This document shows positions 7,027-62,056 of a DNA stretch of 64,000 bases, piece by piece; position 1 is the stretch's first letter, and each line of letters opens with the position of its first letter. The position numbers and the translations under genes are program-made. Source of the stretch: Sarcocystis neurona (taxonomy: Eukaryota; Apicomplexa; Conoidasida; Eucoccidiorida; Sarcocystidae). A model generated the notes under the pieces. The model saw nothing but the letters and a program-made list of their open reading frames with translations. It did not search any database and had not been told where the DNA came from. Location of the stretch: assembly GCA_000727475.1 (NCBI GenBank), contig KL647290.1, positions 1,300,910 to 1,364,909 on the forward strand. Reading direction: 5' to 3'.

Positions 7027-9374
7027 CCTGCTGCTGCCGTGTGAACTGTGCAAACAGCGCAGAAGGCTGCAGGGGCTGCTGCTGCTGCATAAGGCGGTGT
7101 CTGCTTGTCCAGCTTCGATACAGCTTGCATCGGAGCCGCAGAATTCCCGGGAAGCGGAATTAGACGAGAATGGGAGAAGGAAGGACGGAGAGGCGAAGTC
7201 TGTGTGGCTGGGCGCTGCATGACGGTCGGAGCAGCAGCCGAGCAGAACGAAGCAGAACAGCCTGTAGACAGCAGGCGCGCGACGAGGTGTGCATCCACTG
7301 GAGGCAGCGCGATTGGTAGCAGCAGCAGCAGCTGGAGCAGCAGAAGGGAAAGTGACTCGGAAGCAAGACCCGCAGCAAAAGCAGTACCAGCAGGCCGGCC
7401 GGCGGTGCTGCAGCTACGGCAGCAAAAGCCCTGCGGGTCTCAGGCCGAAGACGCAATGCTCACGGGTCCCAGCAGCAACAGGAGCCGTGCAGGACTGCGA
7501 GCGGCAGCAGCCAGTAGCAGCAGGAGTACAGGTGGTAGCTGCTGAAGAAGCAGCAGCAAGCACGTAAGACTGCGGCAGCAGCAGCAGCAGTGTCGCCGCC
7601 CGCAGGCAGCCCCTGCGTGCGTTCTGCTATCACAGCACCCGCTGCTGCTGCAGCAGGCACTGCGAGCAGTGGTAGTAGTAGTAGTAGTGGTAGTAGTAGT
7701 AGTAGTAGTAGAATGCACTGGCGGCAGGCGTTGAGAGAAGGGTACTCCGAAGAAGTGAGGAGACGCAGAAGTCACGAGCCGCGGAAGTGTGTGCAGCAGA
7801 GTGTGTGTGGCACTGGGAGAGGAGAAAGCAGCGAGAATAAAGGCAGACAAGCAGCAGCAGCAAGAGGCGGTGCGTCCTTTGTTCCTTTATATGGAGCACA
7901 ACGCTGCAGCAGTAGACGCAAGTAATCCGCCACACGGCGAGGAGACAGAAGTCGCCCTCAAAGACGGCACGCTGAAAACAGGCGCCACTACATCTGCTGC
8001 TGCCGACAGGTGTTGCTGCACTGCGGCTGCTGGTTGGTGCAGTCGCTGCTGGTTCCTCCTGTAGTGGCGGTTACTTCATTATCGCTGCTGCTTCTCGTGC
8101 CGGCCGCTGGTACGCTGCAGCCGTGTGTGCTGCTGCTGTTCCTGGGGCAGCTGCTTCTGGCTCGCTCTCGCACAGAAGTTGCTGTCTGCGGCGGGTGGCC
8201 AGACGCTGCTGCGCTGCTTCGTCTTGTCCCTGCAAGAAAGTGGCTGACTGTGGCAGCGGAAAATCGAAGAAATTGCGTCGAGTGTGCGCGGCCGGCCCGT
8301 CGGTAGCCGCACTGCATGCGTGCGTGCTCGGGCTCGACAGCGGCCCGCCGGAGTAACAGCAGTGGCATTTGCGGTGGCCGTGCACGCGCGCAGAGCGGAG
8401 TGCGCGATAGGAGCCCGTTCACAAAGCTTGGAGAAGCAGGAAATGCTTCTGGCACAGAGCAGCGGACCGTACTTCTGCAGGGCCTGTGCTGGAGGACCGC
8501 GATGATACGACGGAGACACAAGAAGGGATGGACAGCAAGACGGCCTCCCCAAACAGCAAGGCGCGCACGCGCAGAGGCAGCCGCGTATTACGCCGTGCGG
8601 TCGACGCTCCAGAAACACACAGAGGACGAGAACGGCCCCAGTCCGCCTTTGACGGCAGCGGTTAGTCAACAGGCGGGACAGAAGGGGCAGCACTTCTGCG
8701 GCAACACAGCAGGAGCACAGGGAGTCCGCCATATTCGTTCGACTGTGGCCGTACACAACGGAGCAGCGTTCGGCTCTGCGCGTCCTTATGTACAAGCGAT
8801 TGAAACACGTCCTCTGTCTGTAGTCCTCCCGTGCATTTGGGTGTGTGGGTCTGCATGTGGAAGTGAGAGCAGGAGTGAAGTTAGCAGCAGCTGCAAGACA
8901 GTAGCAACAGAAGCGTGCCCGAAGGCTGAGAAGCTGCCGAACAGACGCGGTCATATGCGTGGAGTCAGCGAGCGGCAGATTTCTGAGTCACTTGCTGCTG
9001 CTGAATTCACCAGCCACTACGCTTAAGCGGTGACTTTGTCTGGGTGTGCACTACCGCAGATGCTGCACCTGGACGTACTACGGTTACACCGCTGCCGCTA
9101 ATTCTGCCACTGCTGCGATTGTTGCAGGAAGACTCCCGTAGTGCTGCAGGACCCACTGGCGCTGCTACGCAGACCACATTTCGCGGTGTCTCGCTGTTTT
9201 GGCAGCTGCTGCTTCTCCGTCGTTGCGTGTCCTTGTGGCGCGGCGCGAGTTTGCTGCTGTGGGTGCTGGTGCTGCTGCCGTCTGCGGGTGCTGGTGCAGC
9301 AGCTGCTGTGTTGTTACATCGGCGGCTGCTGCTGCTGGCCGGTTCTCCTTGCTGATGATGCTTTTGCTGCTACT
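7027..9374. other. triplet-rich DNA upstream of the FKBP gene
   Basis: CAG triplets dominate the plus strand at about 7300-7600 and CTG at about 7990-8250 and 8990-9350. Frames of 200-290 codons exist on both strands (plus about 8316-9026, minus about 8079-8954), but they overlap, have no recognisable domain, and read as Ala, Arg and Ser. The CTG-rich 8990-9350 stretch gives way to CAG at about 9500 and may be 5' untranslated or intronic DNA of the FKBP gene. Confidence 0.4.
7669..7711. repeat. (AGT)n trinucleotide run
   Basis: A nearly pure AGT/GGT run encoding a Ser/Gly stretch on plus. It differs from the CAG/CTG triplets used almost everywhere else. Confidence 0.9.
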
Positions 9375-12300
9375 ATGAAGGCGGCACCAGATATCCAGGC
9401 CTCGGCAGCAGCCCTGCGCTCCCTCTGCGCACGGCTCCGCACCCTCCAGGCAGGCTGCCACAGAAAATGTACCTGTTGCTGCGAGTCAACTACTACGAGG
9501 AGAAAATTACGCTGCAGTGGTAGCAACAGCAGCAGCAGCGCCGCCAGAAATTGCTGCTACAGCAACAACGTCGACAAGAACAGCAACAGTCCGCAAGTCA
9601 ACGGTGCCACGAGCAACAGCAGCAGCCACCGATGGAGTTACACCGACGGCAGCAAAACGGACAGCAGCAGCTGTCATGCCTACAGCAAAACTTACCGCGG
9701 GCTTAGCACAAGAAGTCTCGAGAAGCCGTGGAATACGAGGAACTTCTGCAGCGGCCATACAGACGCCTACTGCAGCAACAAGCGCATGCTCGGCTACAGC
9801 AGCATCACTACACCCGGCCTCTTCAGTGTCAGCAGGGAAGGAGAATATGCAAGCAAGAGGTTCAGCAGCAGCCCCAACAGGCACTCGAGTTTCACCAGCA
9901 GCGGCGTCCGCGCTAGGCGCAGAACCCTTCGCGGCGACAGTAACAGCAGCAGCATCAGCGACCCCAGTGGCCACAGCAACAGAACCATCACCAGCTGCAG
10001 CAGCAGCAGCATCACCAGCTGCAGCAGCAGCAGCATCACCAGCTGCAGCAGCCCCAACACCAGCAGCAGCAGCAGCGTCAGCAGCAGGAGCACCAGCAAC
10101 AGCAACAGCGGCAGCACGAACTGCAGCAGCGGCAGGAAGAGGGATGAGAACGCGGCAGGAGGAAGAAGAACATCAGGAGACTCGCCACCGGCACCGCCGT
10201 GCCTACTATCGAAGGGCTGGTGGTTGTCCGCTACCCCCTTTCAGGCTGCGTCCCTCGCGCCCAAGCAGCAGGCACGTCAGTCTCACTCGCTGCAGCACCA
10301 GCTGCAGGCTGACAGGGTCCTGCAGCACAGGCGGCAACAGCAATACTCGCAGCAGCAGCGGCAGCACCTGCCCCACCTCCACTGGCATCAGGTGGAGCAG
10401 CACTGGACGCAGCAGCAGTCCTGTAGCAGCAGCAGCACAACCGCGAGCAGCAAGAGTGAGGACGCCGCTGACGGTCGTGCTGCTGCAAGGAAAGGAGGCT
10501 TCATTTTGGCGTTACTGGCGGCGCCCCTGGCTGCTGCAGTATCTGCCGCAGCGCTAGATGGACCACAGAAGGGAAGATGCTATGGCCCTTCGAGCAGCAG
10601 CAGCAGCGACAACAGCTCCACATGCTGCAGTATCCACAGCAACAGCAACGACGCCTCCTGCAGCAGCGTGACGAAAGGCAGAGATGCGTTTAAGGGAGCC
10701 TCAAGCCAGCAGGCGGAGCGCAGAGAGCGACCGCTGCTGTGGGGTGCGCGCCTTCGTACTCTGCAGTGTTCAGCAGGTGCTGCAGCGCCGTCGTCGCCCT
10801 GTGCGGCAGCATCCTTGGCAGCGGTGTCAGCAACGAGAAACAGCAGGGCAGCTGCGTCTTCAGCAGCTGAAGCAGCAGAAAGCGCAGCAACAGCAGAGGG
10901 CGCAGCAACAGCAGAGGGTGCAGCAACAGCAGAGGGTGCAGCAACAGCAGAGGGTGCAGCAACAGTAGAGGGTGCAGCAGCAGCAAAACCCGCAGCAGCG
11001 GCAGAGTCCGACACAAACTCAGCATCGAGTAGCACGTGTAGGAAAGAGGTGGTGCAGCGCACCGCAAGAAACGGCAAGAGCCCCACTGCTGCTCCAGCAG
11101 ATGGCGGAGGTGCAGCAGCAACAGCAGAAGCAGGTGGGGCTGCTGAGAAGCATAGCAGTGGTGCCAGCAAAGTGCCGTACTTGCAGAGGTTCGCCATTTC
11201 CAAGGAGAAGTTTCTTGAGAAGAAGTTCCAGGGAACTGCGACTGAATACTTCCGCACGCCCTCAGGTCAGTCGCGGTGTACGTGCACCGCAGGAGCGCAT
11301 AGTTCCGGTCTAATTTCCGTCCGTGCAAACTTGTACATGCATGGATTACGCGAAGGCGTTAATACGCGTGTGAGCGAAGCCTCACCTCCAAGAATCCCAG
11401 CGTGAGAGCCCAGTAGACAACGGGCTGCCCGTGTAAACGTTGCTGCACGGCTCGGATTAGTCACGCATATCTTCTGCTGCTGCACAGCCAACTCCTGGTG
11501 GCTTCTGTAGGTCACAGCTGACGGGTCAGCAACGCGGGCACACATACATACATATATACATGATAATCAGACACATATGTTTACATATGTACAACATATA
11601 TATGTGTGTTATCATACATATGTGTATAAGTGTACAGAAAGAAAAGGAGGCGTTACCGAATGGTGCTGCGGTCCTCCTAATGCGTGGGGTCGCGTCTTCT
11701 GCTGCTGTTGGGGTGAGGTGCGTCCTACGTCGATGTCAGTCTGCAGTTGCCGTGCAGGTGTTGCTTGATTGAGCTGCTGTACTTATTTTCTGCTGCTACT
11801 CTGCTCTGTGCTGCTCCGTCTAATCTCTGCTGCAGCAACCCTCTTCTCTGCTGCTGCTGCTTGCCTTGCTTCCCCGCACACGTGTTCCGCTATGCCTGGA
11901 GACGACTTCTTGTATCTCCCTGCTGTCACTTTCTTCCTGCTGCTGTTCCGCCTCCTGCTGCGCTGCGCCCTTGCTGTTGCACTCCCACTTCCTGCTGCTC
12001 TCCCACCTCCTGCCGCTTCCCCACTTGCTGCTGCTCTCCGATTTGCTACTGCTCTCATAGTTGCTGCTGCTCTTTTCTCAACTGCTTCGGTCCCTTCTAC
12101 CGCTCGTATGATTTGCCGTCTATTTTCCCTCTCGCGAGGCTCCTCCCTCCGCTGCTTCCCTTCCCTGCTGCTGACCCCGTGGTGTGGCTCGGCTTTGCTG
12201 CTGCGACGCCCTCGGCTGCCGTTGCTGGTACCGCAGGCGTGTACTATTGCGACAGGGAGACGGGCTGGGGCGAGGAAGCGGCAAAGGAGGGAGACGTGGT

Positions 12301-15300
12301 TTGGCTGCAGTTCGCTGCACGGCGCAGCAGCGACGATCGTCTATTCGAAAGCACTGACGCCGCTACTCTGCCTGCGCCTATACTTTCACTCTACCGCTTG
12401 TAAGTGACACCCGCCCGTGAGGCTCTTCATCAGTACATCAACTGGGGCACTAGAGTATCTGCAGAGTAATCTTCTCACGCTGGAGCCACAGGTCTCTGCC
12501 GCCGTCTCGGCTGCAAGATTGCTGCTGTGCCGTGGCTGATGCTGCTGCCAAGCCGGTGGTGCTGCTGTGTGGTAGCCTCTGTGGTTGGACTTGTGCGTTC
12601 CGCGTGCGGAGGAATACAACATTCCTGTTAATCCGAACGGAGAAAATGTTGCTTGCTCTGCTTTTCACTACAAATACAAGTTCTTACCTCCTAGAAGCGA
12701 GTTTGTCACTGCTGCCAATGCTGTTGCCTTTAGAAGTCGCTGCTGCACGCAGCTCTGGTGCTGCTGTGGTGGGTGCTCCTGCTGTTGCTGTAACGGGTGC
12801 TGCTGCTGCTGCTGAAGAAAGCTGCTGCCACTACTGCCCAAGTGCTGCTGGACTAGTTGCAGAATTTCCTCACACGCTGTGAGAGACCCCGTCATCGCAT
12901 AGGATGCGCTTGCAGGCATTCTCTTACTTCCCCGCACGCTTGAGACGTTCCTCCGTCGACCTGCTTCTCCTGGGTCTCCTGCTGCTGGTGGCAGTACTAC
13001 TGGTGTCGCTGCTGTCCTCTGCGGTTCCACGCTCCGGCTACAATGTCACTGCGGCTCCTGCTACGGTGTTTGCTCCTCGTGGCTTGTCTCGAGCAGCGAC
13101 AAAAGACAAGGGCGCCTTTTTTTTAGACAGTAAAAGGAGAGTCCACCCGCTTTTTTAGCTTATGACAAGCTATGTCAGCTACTGCAAGTTTCGGCGGCGA
13201 TACGATTGTAGCCGGCCACCTCTGCATGTACCTCCCTGGTAGCCGGACCTTCCAACAGTCTCCGTACGGCCCCTTTCTTGTCTGGAGCTCGTGCTGTTGC
13301 TGCTGCCGTTGCGACGATCTGAAGTTGCGGCTCCTTCTGTCTGGCTGCTGAATGTGCTGCTTGTGGTTCTGCTGCTGCTGTGCTGAGGGCGTCCGCTGTT
13401 AGACTCGGTCTGAAGAACGCAGTGAAGGTGCCTACCCATGGTCGATATGTCTGCATCAAATTAGAAAGCATTCCCCCCTCCTCCACCAGCAACAGCTGCC
13501 GCAACAGAAGCAATACCTGCAGCAACGGAAGCGGCAGCAGCGTTAGCAGCAGCTGCGCCGGTGGCAGCAGCAGCAGCAGTTGCAACAACACTTGGATCAG
13601 TCCTGATGGCAACACCACCAGCGGGAGTGAGGAAAAGCCAAAAGCCAAAAGCGTGGTCCCGTTGCTCCCCCCCGAGGGGCCTTTTCGGGATGCCACCACC
13701 GACGCAACCGTCACGGCGCACTCACCAGCAGCAGCGACCCGAGGCGAGCGGGCAGCAGCGTGCTCGGCGACCCTTCCACTACCGGCAATGGCAGACGGCG
13801 AGAAGGCGGCAGTGGAAACACAGGCAGCAACAGCAGCGGCAGCAGGAGCCGAAGCAGCAACCACAAGAGCCACAGGCACCAAGGCAGCTGCACCAGGAAC
13901 AGCGGCACTGGAAACAGCAGCTGCTGCAGCAGGAGGAAGTGAAGAGAACAACGGGGCATCCGGTCGACGCGTGTATGATAGAGTCATCCCCGCTCTGTAT
14001 GAAGGCGTCCGTGGCATGCGAGTGGGAGGTAAACATCAGCTGATTCTCTCTTCTGTGCCGTTTTCAAAATTCGTATGTTCTTCTCTACATACACACATTT
14101 AAATACGTAAAGCTGCACGAACGCGCTAGTGGTGCGGAACATCCCAAGCAGGAGAACGACTCTTCGTCGAGGAGCGGGAGTGACGCCACGGTGATCTCCG
14201 GTGCACTGTTCTTCAGGCATTGGTCGTAGTGTAGACGTAGAGGAGAGTCGATACGTGCGTGTACATCTCTGTGTGTGTGTGTGTGTCCGCATGCAGTACG
14301 TATGTGTGGTTGTATCTAGATGAGTAGTTCGGCGTGTAAGATCGGGACCCACCTGCTCAACCTACTCTGTAAACTGTGTGTGATCGTACATGTAGATATA
14401 TATCTACCTATCTATATATACGCAGGTATACGTATATGTATGAACATCTGCTAGCCGTCACATCTTCCTATGCAGTGCATTACACGCCACACGTACGCCA
14501 AGGATACATACATGTATAAGTGCTTGTATGTAAAGTTATTTGATTCCTCGATCTGTCGGCATGCGCATCTGGAGAGTGCTTTGTTTTTGCATTCATTAGT
14601 CGCGTCAGCTGCGCTTCTCAACCCCGACGTCTAGAGAGAAATTGGAGAGACACGAAAAGACACAATACTGTGTAGGAGAATAATGTGTAGAAGAAAGAAC
14701 GAGGAAGAAGAAGCGCGTCGCTGATGTGCGAATTTCTGTTCTGTACCTTCTCTGCTTTTTCGCTGCGGTGGACCTACACCCCAGGCCTCCGAGAGCTGAT
14801 CGTGCCTCCGCACTTGGCGTATCAACACTTGTGTGACGAGGTACGTCTTTCCCCTGCTTCCGGTCGGGTTGCTTAAACGGCAGAACTGCTGCAGTGCAGC
14901 GAGTCTCTTTTCCGGGGCAGCACGTACGCCAATTTTGAGTAGACAAGGATTTCACAAAACGTGTGCACATACTAGGTTGCGCATTCGTAGCGTGTCTCCT
15001 GCGTTTTTGCACCTGTCACATATCTGTGTGTGATTCGATGTGAGGTGGCGTGCATGCTATCTTCCGGCGCAGGACTATGTGCTTGCCTTCCTAGTCAGTC
15101 TCCACGTAGAGACTGACGCATACGCAGTCGGGTGATGTATAGAGGCGCTTCTGGCAACTTCTCTTTATCATTTAGCTACTAAGCCGGCGCGTGCAGCAAT
15201 ATATACATATAGCCGTCTTCATGCGTGGACCCCTCCGTGTCTGTAGAGGCGCTTGTGTACCTATGCATATGCATGTGTAGATAAAATACGTAGTACTGTG

Positions 15301-23376: not shown

Positions 23377-26300
23377 CTAGAAATTTTCACACGCTGCAAC
23401 GCAAGCCTTTATCCTACCGCCAAACCTTTTCCCACCTGCAGTTCTGTTCCGCAGGGTGAGAGGTCGTCCAGAACGCTGCTGCTGCGGATACTTGGCCTTC
23501 TCTTCTGCCTCCTTTTTCGTAAACTGTCCTGCGCCTCCATTTTCCTGCACGGGTGCATGACCGTCCACAAAGGCCTGCTGCTGCCGCTCCCATTCTTTGG
23601 AGTCAAAGGTGCCGAACAGCTTCGAGAGTTCTTCCTTCTGCTGTTGCAGTGCGCGTTTTCTCTGCTCCAGCTCCCCTTGCTGCTGCGCGACTCGATCGAC
23701 CAAAATGGCCAGTCTCTCCTGGTGCTGCTGCTTCATCTGCTGCAACCGTTGCGTGCGCCTCGGTACTGTAGTTTCTGGGTGCGGCTGACCTGCAAATTCA
23801 GTGCTCTGTTCTGCGAGGGAAAACGACTTTTGATCTCTGAGTGAGTTACGCCCTCCTTTGTCACAGTCCTGCTCATGAGCTGCTTTAACTGCAATGTGTA
23901 ACCGTGCTGTTGCTTCCGGCAACAACTCAGATTCTTCCGCAGGCCGGACTGCGACAACAGCTGCTTTGCTGCAGTCCTGCCTTCCTTCTTGGGGTGGTTT
24001 CTCTTCTCCACATCCAGGCAAAGTTGCACATCTCCAGTCTCCAACTTTAAGACGCGTACAGCCTGTGTTTGTTGGTCTCGCTGAAAGAGTCGTTGTTGTT
24101 TTGCCTTCACTGTCTTCGTTTGTGCCTGCACCAGTGATTATCTCTCTCACTTGCGGAGCTCCAACCTGCTGGCTCTTGGACCCCCCACTAGAGTGTTTTT
24201 TTCCAAGCTCTCGCCGGGGGTCTGAGAACACTTTTGCGTCCACGTTAGTCACACTGCTATGTGATATCGTCGTGGTCTCCCTCTCTCCCTCTTCTGTTGA
24301 ATTCGCAAATGCTGTTCCCTGCGAAGTCGCCGTCTCAGGTGACATTTTGGAAAGTGATGGTACCTGGGCATCGGGGGGCTGCTGTTCGTCTCGGTGCTTG
24401 CGCGCTTGCTGGTGTCGATCTGGGACTTTATAATCGTTAACGCTTCCCGTGGTGGCGACATGCGTTTTTCTGTGGCTTTTTTTTTCCGCTGCGTTCGTAG
24501 GTGCCTGGGTAACTTCCTCGGCATTAGATTCACGGATCGAGGTCGTTGACTTTGGCTGTGAGCTTTCCTCTGCCTCGCAAGGCTGCCTCCTCGGCCCCGA
24601 CTGCACGTCAGCTTGTTTGCCATTCTCACGCTGTCTCCTCTCCTCCTGTTTCGTGTACTCGCCTTCAACAGGAAAAGCTGTGAATATTTGTGACGGCTGC
24701 TCGAAGTGTGAGGCCACAAACTCCAGGTTTTCTGTGGATACGCTTGGGACCTGCGGACCAGCTGCCGAATGTTCTAACGAATCCTGGAACGAAGGCAGCC
24801 AAGGGCTACGCACGATATCCGAAAAAACCGATTTTGTGGAATTGTGGGTAGCAGTGTCTATGTGGTGCTCCTTGTCAGGTTTGTTGTCGTCTCCTTGCTG
24901 TTTATCGCGGCTGACGTCTCGTTCGTAATCGCTCTCTCGATGAAGACGCTGCGCTAACTGCTGCTGCGATGAGTGCTCCGCCATCTGCTGCGGCTGCGGA
25001 GGACGTTCTACGTTGTGCGGCTTTTGCTTGTCCCGGTTACTCTCCTTCTGGTACTGTGGGTGCCCTTTCTTCTCTGTCTTGTCTCGCTCCTGAGCTGTTC
25101 TACCTGGTGATGCTTTAGCGAGCTCCTCGATACGAGGTGGCTGCACGAATTCCTTCAGCGCAATCTTGAATTGTCTCATTTGATAAAGGCTGCTGGTGCC
25201 AGTGGCTAAAGGTGAAGTTCCGCCGTCCGGACCATTAGAGCCACCCAGGTGCTGAGACGATGCACTGTGCTGGACCTCCGTCAAATCCGGTGTTGGTGGT
25301 GGGGCAAAGGACCCTGCGGGCATTTCAGCTGCCTCGTGTGCAGCAGCAAGAAGGTCCGAGTTCAGCGCGAGCACTCGAGCGGTTGCACTCTGTATTCGCG
25401 TCCACTGCATGAAGCTCTCGAACAGAGGGTAATTTTCGACTGCGCACGTGTCCTGGGAAGGTTCCTTACTTGGCGCAGGCGATACACTTTGCAGCTGTTC
25501 AGGCTGCTCGCTGTCTTCTTGTCGCAACTTCTGCCGTTCCTGCCTAACCGTCTCCTTTCCCCGCTTATGTATGAGCTTTAGTTGCTGCACCAGCTGAAGC
25601 TGCAGCAAATGAAGCACCTGCAGCTGCTGACGTAACATTTGATAGGCCCTCAGCTGCTGCTGCCCCTTGTCAACGTCCCGCCCTAAGGCAAAGATCTCTT
25701 CAAGAAGTTGCTGCTGCTGCTGCTGAAGCTGTTCTTGCTGTTGGTCTTGTTCCCTCTGCTGTTGCTCGCCGTCACTCCGCCCTGGCTGCCCACGCACATG
25801 CTGCTGCCAGTTATATTCCCCCCCGCCACCACTGCCATTTTCTCGTTTCTTCTTGCTGCTCGAGCGTTGCTGAGGTTGATCATAATTGAAAAACAACTGT
25901 GGAGAATTCTGAATTAGCACCTGAGACAGATTTACCTGCTGGGGCAGCTCAACATCAGGAGCTTTCGTTCCCCACATTACTTTCTGCTCTTGCCCTCGTA
26001 CATCTGGGGCGCTATCTGGTGGACTTCCAACAGGTTGAACTTGCTCTACTCCGGTGTCTCTTTCGTCTTGGCTCCGCATCTGTTGGTGAACCTGCTGTTC
26101 AGTTGGAACACCAAAGTCAAGCGCCTGCCGCTGTACAATGTGCTGCAAAGCACGAGGAGCACCTGCTCGGTCTAGTATCTCTTTTGGCACTTCTACGACG
26201 CTTAAAGAGTTGGGGTGGCGCTTCTCCGGTGAAATCAGCTCCTGTTGCTGCTGCGGTTTTTGTGACTCCTCCAGCTGCTGCCACGTACGAAAAATGTGAT

Positions 26301-27156
26301 TGTGTTCTTGATGTTGCATGTTGCGCTGCTGTTGCAACCGCCAAAATCCTGGGTGCTGCTGCTGCTGCACCTGCGTCTCCCCTACCAGCAGCCGCCTCAC
26401 AGCTGTACCAATTTCTTGCTCGTGTCCTCTGTGCTGAACCTGTTGCGGCTGCACCTTCTTTTTCCCCTCCAGTTGCTGCGGTCTCACGTGAGCGAAATGC
26501 TGCTGGTGTCGTTCTTGCTGCTCTGATTGCTGGTGCCATTCGCAGTCCTCCTCTTTTTGCTGCATGCCTCGTACCTCTGGATGAGCGGTGCGTTTCTGCA
26601 GCTCCCAGTCGTGCATTAACTTGCGCAGCTGGGGTAGCTTTCCCAGCGACTGCTCCGCCTGGTGATCTTGCTTGTTAAGTTCGACTCGCACCTGCCTCTT
26701 TGGGAACCGCTGATGTCTTCGGTGCTCTGTCAACTCATGCTCCTCTTGTCCCAGCGACAGCTGTTGCAGCGTTCGAGGCGAATGTCGCTGCCGACCTGTG
26801 AATGTCCTTTTCCGTTGGTGCCTCTGGCAGTGAGGCTGGTGTAGCTGGAGCGCCGTTCGTTGTATCACCAAAGCATCTGGACCAGGGCTAGAACTGGCTG
26901 CTGTGTCTGCTAAAGAAGGGTCTTGCATCTGTTGCACCTCCCCTCTATAACTGCCAAACCATTTGTGTTGCGGTTCTACTTGCCTGGCCTCGAAAAAGTT
27001 GCCATGTGCCGGTGTAGGATTGTCGAGTAGTTCGACTAACGCTGGGGCCCCTGACCTGCGGGGAGGTGTTTCTTCGCTTGCTCTTGACGATGCTGCTGCT
27101 GCTGTTGCTGCTACGCCAGCTGTGCAGACAGCAACAATACGAAGCACACGTAGCAT
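23377..27156 (-). CDS. large Gln-rich secreted protein, function unknown
   Basis: A single open frame of 1259 residues. I chose the ATG at 27156 over one 23 codons upstream because it starts directly with a good signal peptide (MLRVLRIVAVCTAGVAATAA). After the leader come about 100 ordinary residues. A long Gln/His/Arg-rich segment follows (roughly 110-640), likely forming coiled coil. A less repetitive middle part contains helical stretches such as NYPLFESFMQWTRIQSATAR, then a Lys/Glu/Thr/Ser-rich part with a few cysteines. A Gln-rich coiled-coil-like segment (QQQGELEQRKRALQQQKEE) lies near the C-terminus. The protein is secreted or enters an organelle, by inference from the leader. Introns are possible but not needed. 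The sense strand carries CAG, so the triplet tracts read Gln. No family recognised. Confidence 0.65.
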   Translation of the reverse strand: MLRVLRIVAVCTAGVAATAAAASSRASEETPPRRSGAPALVELLDNPTPAHGNFFEARQVEPQHKWFGSYRGEVQQMQDPSLADTAASSSPGPDALVIQRTALQLHQPHCQRHQRKRTFTGRQRHSPRTLQQLSLGQEEHELTEHRRHQRFPKRQVRVELNKQDHQAEQSLGKLPQLRKLMHDWELQKRTAHPEVRGMQQKEEDCEWHQQSEQQERHQQHFAHVRPQQLEGKKKVQPQQVQHRGHEQEIGTAVRRLLVGETQVQQQQHPGFWRLQQQRNMQHQEHNHIFRTWQQLEESQKPQQQQELISPEKRHPNSLSVVEVPKEILDRAGAPRALQHIVQRQALDFGVPTEQQVHQQMRSQDERDTGVEQVQPVGSPPDSAPDVRGQEQKVMWGTKAPDVELPQQVNLSQVLIQNSPQLFFNYDQPQQRSSSKKKRENGSGGGGEYNWQQHVRGQPGRSDGEQQQREQDQQQEQLQQQQQQLLEEIFALGRDVDKGQQQLRAYQMLRQQLQVLHLLQLQLVQQLKLIHKRGKETVRQERQKLRQEDSEQPEQLQSVSPAPSKEPSQDTCAVENYPLFESFMQWTRIQSATARVLALNSDLLAAAHEAAEMPAGSFAPPPTPDLTEVQHSASSQHLGGSNGPDGGTSPLATGTSSLYQMRQFKIALKEFVQPPRIEELAKASPGRTAQERDKTEKKGHPQYQKESNRDKQKPHNVERPPQPQQMAEHSSQQQLAQRLHRESDYERDVSRDKQQGDDNKPDKEHHIDTATHNSTKSVFSDIVRSPWLPSFQDSLEHSAAGPQVPSVSTENLEFVASHFEQPSQIFTAFPVEGEYTKQEERRQRENGKQADVQSGPRRQPCEAEESSQPKSTTSIRESNAEEVTQAPTNAAEKKSHRKTHVATTGSVNDYKVPDRHQQARKHRDEQQPPDAQVPSLSKMSPETATSQGTAFANSTEEGERETTTISHSSVTNVDAKVFSDPRRELGKKHSSGGSKSQQVGAPQVREIITGAGTNEDSEGKTTTTLSARPTNTGCTRLKVGDWRCATLPGCGEEKPPQEGRQDCSKAAVVAVRPAEESELLPEATARLHIAVKAAHEQDCDKGGRNSLRDQKSFSLAEQSTEFAGQPHPETTVPRRTQRLQQMKQQHQERLAILVDRVAQQQGELEQRKRALQQQKEELSKLFGTFDSKEWERQQQAFVDGHAPVQENGGAGQFTKKEAEEKAKYPQQQRSGRPLTLRNRTAGGKRFGGRIKACVAACENF

Positions 27157-30100
27157 GATTTCGTCTGTGTAATGCCGTGCAAGTGGTTTTGCAGAGAGAG
27201 GAAACGTGGCGTCCGCCTCGAGCATTTTTCACCTCATTTCTGGCAATACATCCCACAAAGACTTGGTCAGGTTGTCTACCGTCGCATGGATATGGACTCC
27301 CGTCCCCTTTCTTATTTTCGCGCAAGAGTCATTTTACCCGACTCCCGCGCGGACACAAATTACTGTAGCAGGACCTACGTTTTGGAATGAAGACACCTTA
27401 AATAATCTTCGTTTCCTGCAGTGTTAGAAGAAGAAGTGGAGGCCTACGCGTCCCATCAACGCCTGTGCAGACTCACGTACCCTCGCAGGGGCTTGCGTGT
27501 CCCTCTTCTGTGTATATTTGTGTATAGTCGCCAGAGGTTTTTTGATTGTGATATAACCCTGTGCACCTTCAAGTATTGACTTCCCGTACACTGAAGCGAC
27601 GTTTACAAGCGGCGTCGATTACAACACATGCAAACCCACAAGGGCTACCATGAATCACCAACTGTGAGGCATGATGTCGCCGCATAGTATACTGTAACGT
27701 ACGGTATTGTTCCCGTGTTTAAGCTTACGGGTCAAGCCCTGCAGAACCACCAAATTAAAGCTGAACGTGCGCAGGTGTCTCTTGGTGTATGGGCTATGTG
27801 CTTATTGTGTGCCACTGCCACGGCACGCGTTGGAACGCTTTCCGGGCAAGCCACGTTAGCTGACACCTCATGCTAGCAACACAGAATTGCTATTCTGTGT
27901 CGTTCCGGAAGTCCCCTTTAGCGGGCGAGTATATATTTTTGTCTGAAGCGGCGTTACAACCTAAAGTGAAGTGAAGATTTGGGGCCTTCATAGGCTACAC
28001 AAGTAACCTTTGGTTGCACGGAGTAGGACTGAGGTCGGTTGCGTCCTTCTTGGTTTGTTTCGCTCTAGGTGCGGTGTCTGGAAAACGCCGAACCCTGACG
28101 GCCAAAAGCAGGCAGGAAAGTACGCTAATCCTAAGGTGCAGACAGACGCAGACACTCGCTGCAGACAAAACCTGCAGACGGAAAAGCTCAGGATTCACAG
28201 CGCTGTAGTGCATACCGGCGGGAACAAATACGAAAAGGATTTTCGCACAGTCAAGAGGATGCAGCATGCTACGGACAACCAACCCACGGGCGAAAGCGTC
28301 ACAAATGACAGTGGAGCGTGCTTAGCGCAAATGCTCGCTCTTCTACTGCTTTAAGGTTCGTGGGTCGTCCTAATTCTCCTTTTCGCTCAGCTAAACGTTC
28401 GTTTTGCCGTTGTGTCCAACGGGTTTGCGAGAGCCACTCGTGCGCGTAGTGCTGTAGATGGTGCTTCACGCTCGAATCGACCGCCTGGTGGTGATTCACC
28501 TCCTTTGGTGACCTGCTCATTCTCTTGACGCCGCCGCCTTCCGACTCTCCCGCAAGTGCACCCGAAGCAATGGCAACACAAGTTGCGGATCTGAATACAA
28601 ACGCAGGCAGCGGCTGTAGAAGCAGAACCAGCAGCAACATCAACGTCCTCAGTACCGCCGGCAGGAGCAAGTAAACCGAACAGCCGTGTTGGCAGTTAGC
28701 CGACCACAGCTATCTCAGAAAGCCAGGCGATGCACGGGCAGAGTTCCTTGCTCAGCTCGAAACCCATACACATCTCGGAACTTAGGGCCACAGTGCTGCC
28801 TCAAAACTTTGGGTTTGCGCCCGCGTTGACTATTTGGCGCGTGTATGCAAGTACATGCACACACTGTTGATCTAGCTTCGACGCTCTAGTTTGAATTCCT
28901 CCCCGAGCTTCTACAGCAAGTGCAAGACCGTTCGCACAGGAACAGTAGGAGCACTTGTACGACTGGCGACTCGCAGGTGTAACAGCAGTTGTCTGCCAGA
29001 AGAGCAGCTCAGTAGTAGATTCGGCAGCGGTATTGCGATTGGCAGTGTGCTTGTCTGAACACGAACGTCGGCGTTGGAGGAGACGTATTGGTGTTCGACC
29101 AAAAATGACGAATTCCACCACAAGCAACTATTAACCTGATACTCCAGACAACTGTTCTCTTGTGTACTAGCTGGAGGCATAAGAAGAGCAGTGGAAGCCG
29201 TAAAACTAACGACGAATTCAATAGCAACTCTACCTCTACTACCAGTATTGCCACCAGCGGTACCCGTATGCATCTGTGTGGCGTCAACGGCAACACTCTG
29301 GTGTAATATTTGTTTTTTGGAGGCCAGTAGGGTCAAAGGAGTGTACACACATTCACATGATCATGACTGCACAATGTGAAGGCGGCGGTTCATGTAAACT
29401 GCACACACTACGTATGTACAAATATATGTACACATGATGATGCAACATCCTGTACACGAAAGCAGTTGAATTTCTCCTGCTTTCTGCGTGTCTTTAGCTG
29501 CTGCAATAGCCTACATATAGAAGGAGATCTCCACTATCTCTTCCTATTGGTGTTTTCAAGTTTTCAACCACTGCAATACAGAGAGTCGCGTTTACGTGTG
29601 CTTATTGAAGCCGTCTCTTGTACTGGTCATGAATCCAATGATGTTGCAACTCAACAGCGCTGCTTCGCCTTCGGCCGTCTACCAGTATCAGTCGAGAGAA
29701 CGTGCAGCTGGACTTTATGTGCCACGCCCCGAATATGCGCGATAGTGCATCTAGTAAGTAATAGCGTGCAAGCTGCGTAGTCTCTTGACAGTAATGGCTG
29801 CAAAATGTCAGCTAACCAACTCTGTTAAACACTATCGCTGCATCATTACAAGGAAATAAATAATCTTGTAGAGACTGTCAGCCGCAAGTGTCATCGCCAA
29901 GAACCGTTGGCACAAGTGAAGAGAAGCAGTACAGCCGAGCAGAGAGGACGCGCTGTTCACATATCTGCTACAGGTCGCAATACAAAAATTTCGAGTTTCT
30001 GCATAGATGTAGAAGTGTAACACATAAAGTGCGTGCATAACTGTGACAGGATTGGTGGGCTGCCTGATGTGCGCTGACTGCTTGAGTGTCACCTCAGTAT

Positions 30101-39100: not shown

Positions 39101-42100
39101 CAATGCCACTTCGCCTGGTTGTACGCAAGTTCATTTATATTGGCCTCTTGTTCGAGTGGCGCATGCTTCAGCGCAGTCTTTGCTGGGGTGCTGCATGCCT
39201 CGGGTCCCTCGTGCAGGAAATCGGCAGAGATGACACGTAGCACTGCTTTAATACTTGCTGCTGCAGCTTAGTCTTCAGTACTTTCGACTACTTGTCTCAA
39301 TAGGAAAGGGAGGCGAGCTGTCTGCTTGTCAGCAGGACTACTCTGCTACTGCCGCTGCTGTTAGCTACATGCTCCTACCCTTGCTGCACTCATTTTTTAA
39401 CCCGTCTCCATATATATATATATATATGTATTTTTCCTGTATACACACAGGTACGTAAGCGTTGAAGAACGGATCTGCTTCACTCACCCGCTTACTTTTT
39501 GCCTTTATTGCTGCTGTGGCTGTCACAGCGCTGTTGCCGCTGCCTGGGTGTACACCGTCCTCCTCACTCCTGTGCTCTCCCCTTGAAGGCAGTCGTCGGT
39601 ACACAAGTTCGTTCTTTTTATGGGTTGCCGTTGCTACGTGTTTTCCCAGCTGTCTCGCAATACGTCTGCTATTTTGTTTACCAAAGGAGACGGCGTCTCG
39701 TGGCTCTTCGATTGCGGAGGCGGCCCTTCTGCAGCGACGCTACCTCCGCCTTCTTCTTCTCCGTTCAAAAGCCGATCTTCTCCGTTCAACGAACGCCTTG
39801 AAGCAGTTGCAGCAGGAAGAGAAGGGGAACCGAATGGCGACAGAGGAGCCGTTGTCTGTCAAGATGCCGTTCCCTCGGATTCTTTCTCTTTTCTCTCTCC
39901 GGCAGCAAAAATGGCAGCAGGAGCTCCTCTAGAAGCGTCCACACCTTCTTCGGTAACAGCGGCAGTCTCTCCACAACCAGCTGCCCCTCCGCAGCCACCA
40001 CCAGCAGCAGCGGTAGCGAATCTATGTGAAGCGGGGACCGCCGCGGCGGCACCGCCAGTAACCACGTCTGTGCGTCCTCTGCCTTCGCGTCTGCAGACGA
40101 ACGGTGTGGCGTGCACGTCTGCTGCTCACGCGGATGAGAAGCGTTACTCCGCAGCAAGTGAAGCAGACTCTGCGGGAGTTGGGTCGGCGGTGGCTGCTGC
40201 TGGACGAACGCAGACAGAACCTGCTGCTGGACCTGCTGCCGCTGGTGCTGCAGCGGCCTCCGCTGCTGACAGTGCTGCGGCTGCTGCTCCTGTCCTCCTG
40301 CCCGTCGCAGCACCTGCGAACTGCAGTACACTTAGCAGCTACGCACAGGCGGCAGAGGAAGACACCCCAGAGGGCATTGCAGCAGCCGCTGCTATCGCTG
40401 TAGCAGCAGCAGCAATTCGGGGAGCCGTCAAGTCCGACGCGAGCCAAGACATAGATTTCCACGCGCAGCCGCGGAAGGTAACGGACAGTCCACTACCAGC
40501 AGCTGACCAGCAGCGTCTTCAGAGGTCCGCTTGATACTGCACGTGTCTGCTGTTCCACTGGTAAAGGCATTACATCTGTGCCTGCAGGGGGCTATTGATT
40601 CACACGCATCTATACATATGCACATAGAGATGTATATTTAGATATATAGATATCTACGTGTCTGTATATGTATATACGTATATGTGAATATATATATATA
40701 TGTGAACAGATATTTAGATATTCAGATACCTATATATGTATGTGTAAGAATACATATATATATATATATGTATGTGGACGTATATAGGTGTATAGGTACG
40801 TACGTGTGTATATATGTATATGTAATTCTGCAGAACGTTCGCGTAGTTGTGGGGGACGACTACGCCGGTGTACAGGAAGCGACAATAATTTCGTTGGAAA
40901 GGCTGCAAGAGGGGAAGAGGACGCTCCGTATTCTCAGCATGTTATCCGCCAATATCTAGATATATGTATATATGTGCCGGTGACTGCTGCTGCTGCAGAA
41001 GCGGGTGAGTCGGATCGCGGCCGTCTTTATCACGCACCTCCACGGCGACCACGTCCTCGGACTTCCTTCGCTGCTCTCGCAAATCGCTGCCTCTCCGGCC
41101 CTGCAGCTGCAGGAAGGCGACTGCAGCAGCAGCAGCAACAGCAGCAACGGGAAGAAGCAGCTGGACGAGGCAGGTGATCTCCGCCGAGGAAGTGAGGCGC
41201 AACCACTTGCGCCAGAGGACGCAGAAGACGCAGCCGACGCGCGCGACAGTGCTGCCTCCTGCGCTCAGCGGCAGCAGTTCCCCGTAGTAGAAATTTACGG
41301 CCCACAGGGTCTGCGCAGCCTCCTGCGTGCGATGTTTCTGGTAAGTTCTGCACACGTGCATTTTCTTGAATGTGTGCTCCCACTTATAGAGAAAAAGAGA
41401 GAGACACACACAGACTGATACGTGCGTGTGTATGCATGCTCTCCCACCAAGTGGCGTATGTCGATCCATACACGGCTATATATCCACACTTATATATGCA
41501 TATATATATATATTTTTCTTCGCATATACGTACCTGTGTATATGTGTGTTTCATTGTAAACACATGTGTGTCTCTATATATATGGCGTCACGACGTTCAA
41601 CTTGAATTTTTTACAGGAGCGTGTCTATGCAAACACTTCCTGCTAATACACAGGCATATGCACATACATGTATCGCGATGATGTTCCACCTCAATGCTGT
41701 GTACATACACGTATCTGCGCATCTATGTGCCGGATGAGTGTGCACATACATATCTATATAGAAGCAAAGGGAGTAGTGTGTATTTGAAGGATGGCCCTAT
41801 ATATATGCAGATGCATTTGTATGTCTGCCTGCGTCGTAGAGAGAGAGAGAGTCACACTTGACTGTTCGATCTTTCGGTTTCTGTGGTCGTCTGCCTTTCC
41901 TTCTTTTTTCGGCTGTTTTTTTCTTGAGTTCGTAACGTCCTGTCCGGCCGGAGTTTTCGTTGCGCGCTTTCCTTTCCGCTAATTTCTCGTTTCCCCCTGT
42001 TCGTCTTTCAGTTGTCTTGTTCGTCTCCTTTTCCGCCGTGAACGGATGTCTGTGTCTCTCCTTGCTTCCAGCTTTTCTCTTCCTGCCGTCCTGTATTTTT

Positions 42101-57806: not shown

Positions 57807-60800
57807 TTAACTTGCAGGGTGCTCAGGCACTGAAATGTCCTGTACGACCGTGTCTTCTTCTCCAATAAAGCCGCACCAGCGCAGCCAGCGCCTCACTTTG
57901 TAGTCCTCCATCCACTCCGGGGGGCAGCTGGTGTAACCGTGAGTCCACTGCCGCGCAGGAATATTCGCGGGGGTGCTCATGATTTTGACGAGCTCCATAC
58001 TGTGCTTCACGTATTTGATCCTGTTAAGACAAAAACCAAAAGTCACTCTTTGTCTGTCGCCCCTGTCGCTACATCAGATACAGTAGGTCTCCGCTGCCGG
58101 GTGGTGGGACGGTGGAATAACGTCTGTCAAAGAGCCACTGTGACCAATGCTCCTGTCCTGAAAAGAGACCCCTACGAAGTGACATGATAAGAACATTTTC
58201 ATTTTGTGTTACAGCAGGGCATGCCCACCCGCTAGCGAGAAAAGCAGCTGCCTTATCTTCGATAGTTGAGTGCCCCCACTCGCAAAAATACAGGCGAAGC
58301 TGGCGTGGCCTGCGGTGAGAATGGCACAAACACGCGAGGTCGTCGCGCAGGTATGGAGCACCAGCGTCAGAAAGGACGGCTACGGGCAGCACGTAGTCTT
58401 CTACGGGAGGACAACTAGATAGAACAGCTCTTACATTAAGGAATCGCGCAGTGCGAGGAGGCTTCGCACGCTGCCGTCAACGACGTGAACGGGCTTCCAG
58501 GCGTTTTTCCCCGCGCGCCAGCCACGCAGAATATACCTTAAGGCCGAAAGTTTGAGGCAAGCCGTCTCTTCTTCTTCCTAAAACCAGAAATCAAATATGT
58601 TCGGTGTGTCGACGCCGTATTACGCTGACAAAAAGGGAATTCATTGAGCAATTCTGACCCTTCTACTAGCTGGGAAGTTGACAACGTTCTTTTTTCCTGG
58701 CCGCAGCAACCTATTTTCCCGTGATCCCCTGGCTCCACGCCGTAGCGTAGAATGTGCACGCAACAAGCAAAGAAAGTTGATCCTTTCCGCAAGGCGAAAC
58801 ACAACTTTCGTTTAAAACGCAAGCACACCGCCTCCTCCAGAACTCATACTAAATGCTGGGAACGTGGCCTTTTCACGACACTCGGTGCTTCACGCTTGGT
58901 GAGAAGCTTTCCGCTGCTGATGCGCACGGCAGAGCAGATGTTGCCATGTCTTACTCTTAAAGCAGAAGGTGTGAGAGTGCAGCCTTCCTTCTCAGGGGCC
59001 CCTTCAGTCGACGCCCGTTCTCGCTGGCGCTCAGCGCACTGATTTTTTTCAGCCGCTACGAGCTGCTCCATGGTGTCCCGCCCGTAGACGTGGACGAGCC
59101 TGGCTGCTTCCACGTCTGCAGCCGACAGCCCCATCAGACGCAACATTGATAGGACCTCAGCGGACTCTTCCCATACCGAAAGGATGTGCACCGGGCGACG
59201 CCAATTCTACGTGCAGCAGCCAAACCGCAGACACACGTGCAACAATTTGCCTTCTCTGCCCGAAACTTCAATATTGTGTGAAGTCAACTAGGACTACACA
59301 GTGGTACCTTGATTACATTGTTGCAGAACTACAGGATAGCTTCGATCCTGAATACGTACTCAGGAATCGTACTGTCCACTCACCGCGGAATAAACAGCTC
59401 TCTGTGTGGCAGCAACTTACGTTGATGTGGTTGTTCAAACACCAAATCGCAGCTGGGTTGAAGCCTTCGTAGATCCCCAGTCTGTCAGCATCAGTCGGAC
59501 CGATATGCGTCAAAGAACCGCGGTACTTCACATGCTCGTTCCAGCTTTTACTGTTGGCCATCTTCCATGCCGCACGGGCGTGATTGAAGGCCTGACAAGG
59601 TCACAAGAAATGAAACGGTCTGTTGCCGTCTGAAATTCTTGGCCTACACAGAAGAACTGCGGCTGCCCCGACGGGACAGATCTCGCTTTCCGCCGATACA
59701 GAGACTGTCGGCCACCTGCAAAAAAGCCTCCTTATCAAGTAGAAAACCAGGGAAGACAGAGTTCATACCACTCTCTCACAGCTTTACGCGCACTCTCAGT
59801 ACAGCTTCCCACAGGAATGCAACGCGTAGTGCACACGCACGTCTTGGTACTCAGGCACGTCTTGGTACTCACAGACACAAGTAGTATTAGATGATATTGT
59901 TGTAATCTAATGACAAGACAGCTTTCTAATCAGCAGGTCACGATATACGCTTCTGCACTTCATGATTCAGTGTAATATCCAGCTCAGGCAATTTCTCTCG
60001 TAGGTAGCATTTGAAACTGAAATTACCTGGTCAAGCCACGTTAACTCATCCCGACTGGCAAAACAAAAGCGAATACCTGTTGAAGTTCAGCCTCGGTCGT
60101 GTTGTAGCGTTTGTAAAGAGCAGCCCTCTCCCCGTTTGCCTCCCACCCTTGCAGCGATCGAACCATCCACGGGTACGCGGTGTCGTCTCGAGTTCCTGTT
60201 GCATCCGCTGAGCCGCGGCAGAATTTAAGGGTATCTTGAATGTTGAAGAAGTTCCCACTTTTGGTCACTAGCCACATCTTTTCTGCAGCTTTCATTTTCT
60301 CCCATTTGTCTTGAAAGCACTTCTCGTTGCGCTCTGCAAATGAGTCGATTGTGGACCCACGCCTTTTCTCCTCGTACGTCAACAGCTCCACAATGCGCCT
60401 CATGGCTACCATGAAGTCAGGGCTGCCCCGCAGGGCAAGAGATCTCCGAACGTCACGTATCCGCGCCTCCAACCACGCAGGACACTCCACCCGAGCAAAT
60501 CTCTGCGTCGAGAAAATTTCCGCGAAACGGTGACCAACAGCTGCACCCGCTGAGGGCGGGACAGAAGTTTCGTTGTCACTCTCGGCGGCACGAGGCTTTT
60601 GTGGTCCTTTGATTTCTGTCCCCTCCTGAAGACTACGATATACCAGCGGGGTGGCAGTGGGGTGACACCGCGACCTGCCACCGGATTCGTCAGTAGCGTC
60701 ATTCTTCTGTTTTTCCAGGTGCTGCCAGGCATGAATGGCTGTATGGGTCACTTCTCGTAGATTTAGCTGAATCACCGTGTCAAAGTCCAGCACGTAGACA

Positions 60801-62056
60801 TCTTGAGGCCCTTCCAGATTCACAGCTAACGCGAGATTATCTCGCCACTCGTGCATGGTGAGCGGGCCACGCAGTCGGTCCTCATAGAGGTCGTTGGCCT
60901 TTGTAGTCGATTTTGACCTTACGCCTCCATGCTGCGGCACCTCCTGCTGCTGGAAATGTTCCGCCTTCTCGTCGCCGTCGAGCACCACATAGCTACCTTC
61001 AATTTCTTGAGATGGGCAAAGCAAACTGGGATTGACAAAAATTGGAGACGTTCGCGTTGGCGGCAGCGGGGGTGTCTCTACAGGGTCTCCAGGCCTGACA
61101 AAAGTACCAGTGTCTCCAGCTACAGAAGCAAGCTGCCACCTACTTGTATCGTCCGGTTCTTTGTGCACGCAGGTGTTGGGCAGCTCCTCAAGCGTGTGGC
61201 CTGCGTCCTGCAAGGTGGTTGCTATCCTTTTGCTAGAGGGAGGGGGTCGAAATGAGGGCCGGTTGCTGTTTACGTGCTGTATGAGCTGGTCAGGACGACG
61301 ACCTAGATCAGTTGGTGCTGCAGTGAACGGAAGATCAAAAGGGGCTTCTGACAAAAAAGAGCCTGAGGAGAACGAAGTCGGCACGCGTGAAGCGTGGACG
61401 ATCCTCTGTATCCGACAGGGAGGTCGCACATATTTTGCGTTACGTATGCGGTCTGAACCCACCAAGCGTTTCGCTGCGTTCACAAAGTGTGATTGTAGTT
61501 GCCGGCCAGGACCATGCTCAGAACACACAGGTGGACCTCCTTGTAGTGCCCATTCATAAGCCATTTTTCCTCCGCCCCTGGAAAGAGCTGCAGTTATTTT
61601 GTCGCGGTAGTCTTGTTGGCGCGCTTCTCTGTATGTTGTGGTAGCCGCTGAACTGTGCCCTGATGAGTGGCAGCTAGTGCCGCCACCCACAGCTACTTCC
61701 TTCATCAAAGAGGAACGGACAATCAAGAACGCATGCGTCACCCACAAATGAATTTTTCGATTCCCCTGTATTTTCCTACGAGCAGTTCGGTTGACTTTGA
61801 AGCACATGCCACAGCGAGCAATCCCACTGGCCACATCTGCATTATGGCAAGTTATCACCCGCCGAGAGACGGCGAATTCCATCTGACCACATGACGTCCT
61901 ACAAACGCAGCTCTGAAGCCCTTTTATTGTGCAGGGACTCCCTTTGGAGATACTGGAGCTGTCTGCAATCCTTTTGCAGATTGTTTCACGCCCTACCGCC
62001 ACAACATCGCGGAAAAGAATTTGCACAAGCGCCGAAACACTGATGAGCGCAATCAT
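57807..62056 (-). CDS. HAD-like fold protein with N-terminal leader
   Basis: Six exons, all phases agreeing: 62056-60077, 59591-59421, 59206-58955, 58577-58435, 58309-58229, 58020-57807; 946 residues. The HAD-type features are in order. Motif I is VYVLDFDTVIQ (D424, D426), then TAIHAW. Motif II is VHILSVW (S727). A Lys-rich stretch, GWRAGKNAWKP (K825, K829), is a motif III candidate. Motif IV-like VHVVDGS (D835) is followed by LRLYFCEWGHSTIEDKA. The last pattern, a hydrophobic strand then W-G-x-x-T, recalls plant HAD-like proteins ending in DWGYNT. Motif IV has one Asp followed by Gly, so catalysis is uncertain. The N-terminus (MIALISVSALVQILF) is a likely signal peptide or anchor followed by a Ser/Arg/Cys-rich region; apicoplast or secretory targeting is inferred. 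About 280 disordered residues and a loop with ordinary composition surround motif I. Fold assignment is by pattern only. Confidence 0.7.
59835..59871. repeat. 18-base direct duplication
   Basis: CACGTCTTGGTACTCA occurs twice in succession inside intron 1 of the HAD-like gene. Confidence 0.8.

Follow-up and report, generated by a model that had tools for sequence, protein, structure and literature searches.

Opposite CAG and CTG polarity in the exons and introns of a Sarcocystis neurona FKBP gene probably reflects two independent filters on one stock of repeats

What sets the orientation of a triplet repeat within a gene? The question is raised by a predicted FKBP gene in a 64,000-nucleotide stretch of the Sarcocystis neurona genome (assembly GCA_000727475.1, contig KL647290.1, forward-strand positions 1,300,910 to 1,364,909; hereafter the window, to which positions refer unless a contig is named), whose sense strand carries mainly CAG in two of its exons and mainly CTG in both introns. 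A preliminary description of the locus suggested that selection on splicing, and not on protein only, may orient the repeats in exons and introns alike, with CAG possibly acting as an exonic enhancer and CTG as acceptor context. The comparison reported here, extended to a sample of the same genome, points instead to two independent filters acting on a single stock of CAG/CTG repeats, namely protein tolerance in exons and T-rich composition in introns, and this is considered the probable explanation.

The FKBP gene is predicted on the plus strand as three exons, the donors being GTCAGT and GTAAGT and each acceptor a CAG. Exon 1 (9375–11265) runs from the first ATG of its frame to a CAG directly before the GTCAGT donor and codes for a CAG-rich, low-complexity N-terminal region, with 166 CAG and 47 CTG in the sense strand. 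Intron 1 (11266–12236), closed by the first CAG acceptor at 12236, contains 14 CAG and 53 CTG, most of the latter in its second half (CAG/CTG 11/13, then 3/40) where the pyrimidine fraction is 0.71 as against 0.49 in the first. Exon 2 (12237–12399) encodes the conserved N-terminal half of the FKBP domain up to the GTAAGT donor and is without CAG bias (4/6). Intron 2 (12400–13489; 13/69) is CTG-rich in both halves (6/37 and 7/32); its acceptor was chosen from several in-frame AGs, that at 13489 being preceded by the best pyrimidine tract (17 of 20). Exon 3 (13490–14071, the end provisional; 37/11) holds an Ala/Ser-rich insert coded by CAG, after which comes the conserved VIPALYEGVRGMRVGG part of the domain. 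The sense-strand polarity does flip close to the predicted splice sites, as had been described and as selection on splicing would have it, with exon 2 as an exception that speaks against such selection.

The gene itself is real. The spliced test piece joins exons 1 and 2 to the conserved end of exon 3, the exon 3 insert being omitted and the C-terminal third of the domain lying outside the assembly. It matches the peptidyl-prolyl isomerase PDB 4jys (E 1.9e-6) and exceeds the family cut-off of Pfam FKBP_C (25.2 bits, cut-off 21.1, profile positions 1–65 of 94), whereas the unspliced frames reach only 11.7 bits. A search for relatives among 5.8 billion predicted proteins returned eight candidates, none of them at E ≤ 0.001. 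The codon model used for frame choice is a weak guide, omitting CAG- and CTG-type codons and finding the right frame in 128 of 181 training windows. Among the sense frames it places the FKBP frame best in all exon 1 windows from 10302 on and in the exon 3 windows (13420–14019), and favours it inconsistently in 9462–10421; antisense frames outscore it in windows starting at 9222, 9582–9942, 10182, 10662–10902, 13660 and 13780. The exon 1 stretch from 9.46 to 10.3 kb is putatively coding. Opposite exon 1, antisense open frames rich in Ala, Leu and Ser are found on the minus strand at 9510–10172 and 10583–11358.

How easily such a fit arises by chance was gauged by sliding the gene model in 10-base steps along both strands of the window. 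The observed score of 238 is reached or exceeded by 7 of 11,862 placements, four of them within 40 bases of the gene start and the other three over this repeat segment but on the opposite strand; when exon 3 is begun at 13403, 11 of 11,862 are as good, ten beside the gene and one on the opposite strand. The fit is rare in the window, yet it is equalled by a meaningless placement, and the gene was chosen for showing the pattern. The repeat-rich parts of the window alternate CAG and CTG blocks, so that a single gene proves little and other parts of the genome are needed for the test. The window itself is banded, with CAG/CTG-rich sequence at about 0.5–14 kb and 33.5–41.5 kb and poorer sequence elsewhere, except in a Gln-rich open frame at 23.4–27.2 kb.

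The genome (122,989,501 bases in 74 contigs) was searched for FKBP, protein kinase, DEAD, Cpn60_TCP1, Helicase_C and kinesin domains, and the sample analysed comprises 90 loci matched by the kinase, DEAD and Cpn60_TCP1 domains, amounting to 276,494 unique bases. The domains match exon by exon; neighbouring same-strand matches with continuous profile positions delimit an intron, and a gap that keeps the frame open and has a length divisible by three is read as an exonic insertion, which yields 39 introns (some partly covered) and six insertions. In addition, 25 distinct long coding stretches were taken from open frames of at least 500 amino acids, cut at the locus ends, whose match flanks may include a second matched piece. 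Intron flanks were counted up to 400 bases past the in-frame stop on each side of conserved exons whose domain continues, a count that is independent of the rule by which acceptors were assigned. A comparison of exons and introns in this 276-kb sample recovers the direction seen in the FKBP gene, in weaker form.

Conserved domain matches are themselves unbiased, the 113 matches holding 887 CAG and 903 CTG, which tells against a splicing-driven preference for CAG in exons. The excess is found in the match flanks within the 25 long open frames (2017 CAG, 1485 CTG; CAG ahead in 18 of 25; log2 0.44, 95% interval 0.16–0.69) and in the six in-frame insertions inside conserved domains (176 CAG, 65 CTG; five of six CAG-biased). 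CAG polarity is a property of the repeat-coded parts of proteins, not of exons generally. In-frame low-complexity insertions occur inside DEAD, Cpn60_TCP1 and kinase domains, at C8:1397194-1397418, C1:8925745-8925972 and C25:181072-181842.

Depending on the frame, a CAG run encodes Gln, Ser or Ala and a CTG run Leu, Cys or Ala, and the distribution over frames shows where the exon bias comes from. The 25 long open frames contain 345 CAG and 194 CTG runs of two or more units (12 and 5 of five or more). The CAG runs fall about equally in their three frames (Gln 117, Ser 111, Ala 117; test of equality, p 0.90) and the CTG runs are concentrated in one frame (Ala 139, Leu 38, Cys 17; p 3e-29), the alanine share being 0.72 among the CTG runs (bootstrap by gene 0.59–0.82) and 0.34 among the CAG runs (0.25–0.44). 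The exon CAG excess thus exists because CTG runs are scarce in the Leu and Cys frames. FKBP exon 1, in which CAG runs of this length code for Ser 18, Ala 13 and Gln 4 times and CTG runs for Ala four times and Leu once, fits the same protein tolerance.

The alanine frame, in which both polarities specify one residue, is a simple control that tells causes of repeat polarity at the protein level from those at the RNA level and is usable in any genome with coding triplet repeats. Were CAG kept in exons as a purine-rich enhancer, or for any other reason at the RNA level, GCA should outnumber GCT here, but the GCA and GCT runs number 117 and 139 at two or more units, 32 and 41 at three or more and 5 and 16 at four or more (log2 GCA/GCT -0.25 for the frame, 95% bootstrap interval by gene -0.88 to 0.44). 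In tracts of at least four alanines GCT is used 152 and GCA 125 times, and over all codons of the long coding stretches the counts are 723 GCA and 697 GCT. Fourfold-degenerate sites favour T over A (log2 -0.21 and -0.28), contrary to what a preference for purine-rich enhancers would give. By codon position, log2 A/T is 0.37 and 0.45 at positions 1 and 2 of the long open frames and -0.09 at position 3; in conserved exons the three values are 0.72, -0.09 and -0.18. Since GCA is not preferred in the alanine frame and T exceeds A at fourfold sites, the exon bias is attributed to amino-acid tolerance, and for exons the data, as far as their precision goes, do not support the splicing hypothesis.

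Introns are biased in the other direction. The 39 introns contain 974 CAG and 1489 CTG, with CTG ahead in 26, CAG in 12 and one tie (log2 -0.61, bootstrap 95% -1.01 to -0.17), and when they are grouped by family, contig and strand 18 of 24 groups are CTG-biased against six. CTG is in excess in acceptor flanks (49 vs 16 of 68, p 0.0001) more than in donor flanks (46 vs 35 of 86, p 0.27; acceptor-donor difference in CAG/CTG bias, p 0.034), and the flanks outside the 39 introns and six insertions give 25 vs 5 of 32 (p 0.0003) on the acceptor side and 27 vs 19 of 49 on the donor side. The greater excess beside acceptors is what selection on splicing would predict, as are the mean log2 of -0.86 in the second half of introns against -0.29 in the first (n=35, p 0.078) and the runs of two or more units in complete introns, which by successive thirds number 25, 44 and 36 for CTG and 18, 12 and 9 for CAG. 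In the flanks, on the other hand, such runs are about equally CTG-biased beside acceptors and donors (CTG/CAG 94/45 and 91/47), which weakens the case for an orientation of the repeats by acceptors. With runs masked, the CAG/CTG triplet counts are 353/526 in acceptor and 471/569 in donor flanks, and because the runs are alike on both sides, the gradient towards the acceptor sits in dispersed sequence.

The intron bias likewise extends beyond the repeats, the sequence outside runs still holding 715 CAG and 1026 CTG, and the overall log ratio of -0.61 equals in practice the -0.60 expected from dinucleotides. Introns have T over A (log2 -0.36), a skew that reaches several hundred bases upstream of acceptors, and the acceptor flanks differ from the donor flanks in pyrimidine fraction (0.539 and 0.501, p 0.035) and log2 A/T (-0.49 and -0.22, p 0.053). 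Among 32 triplet pairs the exon-intron difference is largest for ACA/TGT (1.14), with CAG/CTG second (1.03) and AAA/TTT, GGA/TCC, AAC/GTT, AGG/CCT and CAA/TTG next (0.94–0.96). The introns therefore have a T-rich, somewhat acceptor-weighted composition that accommodates CTG. CTG as acceptor context stands in so far as the excess is greater in acceptor flanks, but it involves non-repeat sequence too, is no more than dinucleotides predict, shows no specific avoidance of AG near the acceptor and affects the runs alike on both sides. A contribution of acceptor context to the intron bias is possible, and the splicing hypothesis survives for introns in this weaker form. In the sampled introns, the 50–200 bases on the donor side have more A and G than the remainder of the intron. 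The junction of a CTG with a CAG array (CTGCAG) was considered as a ready-made acceptor and rejected, being present at 2 of 32 acceptors, much as in the background of 66 of 1009 CAGs.

It is proposed that in exons the filter would be the protein, acting by way of the reading frame. CAG arrays, whether read as Gln, Ser or Ala, would all be tolerated in disordered insertions, whereas of the residues that CTG arrays supply (Leu, Cys and Ala) chiefly Ala would be, presumably through selection that removes the Leu and Cys frames. The frame counts show CAG runs in exons at almost double the number of CTG runs, although polarity looks neutral at the RNA level, as such a filter would have it. Introns would lack the protein filter; their sense strand is T-rich, the more so on the acceptor side, a composition into which CTG fits and CAG does not, and the skew itself may stem from selection for a pyrimidine-rich acceptor context or from a transcription-linked mutation bias, the two being unseparated here. 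When a multi-exon gene coincides with a repeat-rich segment, as the FKBP gene does, both filters together would mimic a polarity that follows the splice sites.

Several points weigh against this account. The alanine-frame ratio is imprecise and leaves room for an RNA-level preference for CAG of up to about 1.4-fold. Two Eimeria studies point in the direction of such an effect, GCA exceeding GCU in E. tenella cDNAs (4159 and 3388; PMC3315734) and being listed for six Eimeria species as one of the optimal codons met most often (PMC11313453). The E. tenella counts lean more to GCA than the Sarcocystis neurona sample does. For the introns, another way of trimming gives a borderline sign test (26 vs 13, p 0.053), dropping the six most CTG-biased of the 39 shifts log2 from -0.57 to -0.16, and one intron is strongly CAG-biased (114/22). 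The rule that A-rich triplets give way to T-rich ones in introns is broken by TAA/TTA (0.01) and AAT/ATT (-0.25). Finally, splice sites were assigned from homology by an acceptor rule that prefers a pyrimidine-rich final 20 bases, which biases the composition there by construction, and the p-values are uncorrected for the number of tests.

Among the alternatives, a transcription-associated mutation bias, which would make the sense strand T-rich in introns and at synonymous sites and let exons deviate solely through amino-acid selection, is possible, though the odds are against its sufficing by itself. It would account for the excess of T over A both in introns and at fourfold sites and for runs that are CTG-biased on both sides of introns, but the stronger A/T and pyrimidine skew on the acceptor side is not expected of a uniform effect.

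Avoidance of cryptic 3' splice sites, by which the AG-bearing CAG would be purged from introns and CTG, with neither AG nor GT, would remain, is an unlikely cause. In Drosophila and other eukaryotes, short introns have been documented to avoid such sites (PMC10946897). In the present sample CAG is indeed scarce and CTG common near acceptors, and at 100–300 bases from the acceptor the AG asymmetry is -0.16 against an expected -0.11. Within 40 bases of the acceptor, the value of -0.26 hardly departs from the -0.23 expected from base composition (32 AG-ended introns, a number at which weak avoidance could escape), so that avoidance of AG as the specific cause is unsupported beside the acceptor. 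Other dimers are more depleted in the same interval (AA -0.54, AC -0.38, GA -0.36), and the AG-free triplets ACA, CAA and AAA are skewed in introns at least as much as CAG.

It is equally improbable that repeat polarity simply alternates in blocks of about 0.5–2 kb with which one gene happens to line up. Blocks of both signs do take turns where the window is rich in repeats, and the same gene model placed on the opposite strand over the FKBP segment scores equally, but the recurrence of the direction in 18 of 25 long open frames and in the fresh acceptor flanks (25 vs 5) means that the genome sample largely disfavours coincidence, which may still explain why the FKBP gene looks cleaner than the average gene. 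Selection on splicing as the force that orients repeats in exons and introns together is more doubtful again, its acceptor-side evidence being outweighed by an alanine frame without preference for CAG, fourfold sites with T over A and unbiased conserved exons. CELF and MBNL proteins are splicing factors that bind CUG repeats, and CTG-rich intronic RNA is their kind of target. No better chances are given to the idea that CTG-rich and pyrimidine-rich territory up to several hundred bases long upstream of acceptors functions in intron definition, perhaps via a CUG-binding protein, repeat expansion then serving as a source of disordered insertions in the one polarity and of acceptor context in the opposite one, because the repeat runs are CTG-biased alike on donor and acceptor sides.

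Two further genes of the window had been named as agreeing with the FKBP pattern. The Gln-rich open frame of 1283 amino acids (23380–27228, minus strand) is CAG-rich in its sense strand (198 CAG, 66 CTG), an agreement that covers the open frame alone and includes no intron; its runs of two or more units code for Gln 22, Ala 2 and Ser 1 times as CAG and once each for Leu and Ala as CTG, and no Pfam family matched it. The putative tRNase Z intron 1 (40532–40998, the end uncertain; plus strand) shows little polarity, with 6 CAG and 9 CTG in 40532–40960, which leaves the further support mixed. A (CTG)4-CAG array at 40984–40998 stands at or just before a metallo-beta-lactamase-like stretch (about 40990–41091) that scores under the Pfam cut-off; the CAG at 40998 may be the acceptor, which would add the (CTG)4 ending at about 40995 to the intron. 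Six-frame Pfam scans of 14–43 kb gave nothing beyond weak metallo-beta-lactamase matches. On the minus strand at 60044–62056, an open frame of 671 amino acids has no Pfam family; it gave PDB matches to TAL-repeat proteins over about 30–60 residues, which have a low-complexity look and of which no stretch passes alone.

Read through the two filters, the FKBP gene illustrates cleanly how ordinary constraints act on one repeat stock, and the acceptor-side pyrimidine skew of these long introns provides a testable lead on intron definition in Sarcocystis neurona. The skew resembles the selection on intron 3' composition set out in PMC10946897, where a polypyrimidine tract is maintained and spurious AGs are avoided, in that pyrimidines are in excess towards the acceptor; it differs from that system in that AG-specific depletion beside the acceptor went undetected here and T exceeds A over several hundred bases upstream. 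The nearest parallel for the exons is Eimeria, in which both the enrichment of CAG triplets in coding sequence and their reading as Ala, Gln and Ser are already known, along with a banding of chromosomes into repeat-rich and repeat-poor parts (PMC7564333, PMC9131526, PMC4287421). The excerpted text of these accounts does not treat the polarity of repeats in introns, and no paper on exon-intron repeat polarity was among the matches listed. Beside the published Eimeria arrays, which are perfect over seven or more units in a large share of genes, those of Sarcocystis neurona may be short and interrupted, a perfect (CAG)8 being counted at 28 places, overlapping ones included and at the least, in a genome of 123 Mb, as against about 50 Mbp in chicken Eimeria and 39.7–73.3 Mb in rabbit Eimeria. 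As in Eimeria, repeat-rich and repeat-poor bands are present, here within the 64-kb window, and as with the Eimeria CAG repeats and the homopolymeric amino-acid repeats (HAARs) they encode, CAG runs in coding sequence exceed CTG runs (345 vs 194) and are read as Gln (117), Ser (111) and Ala (117).

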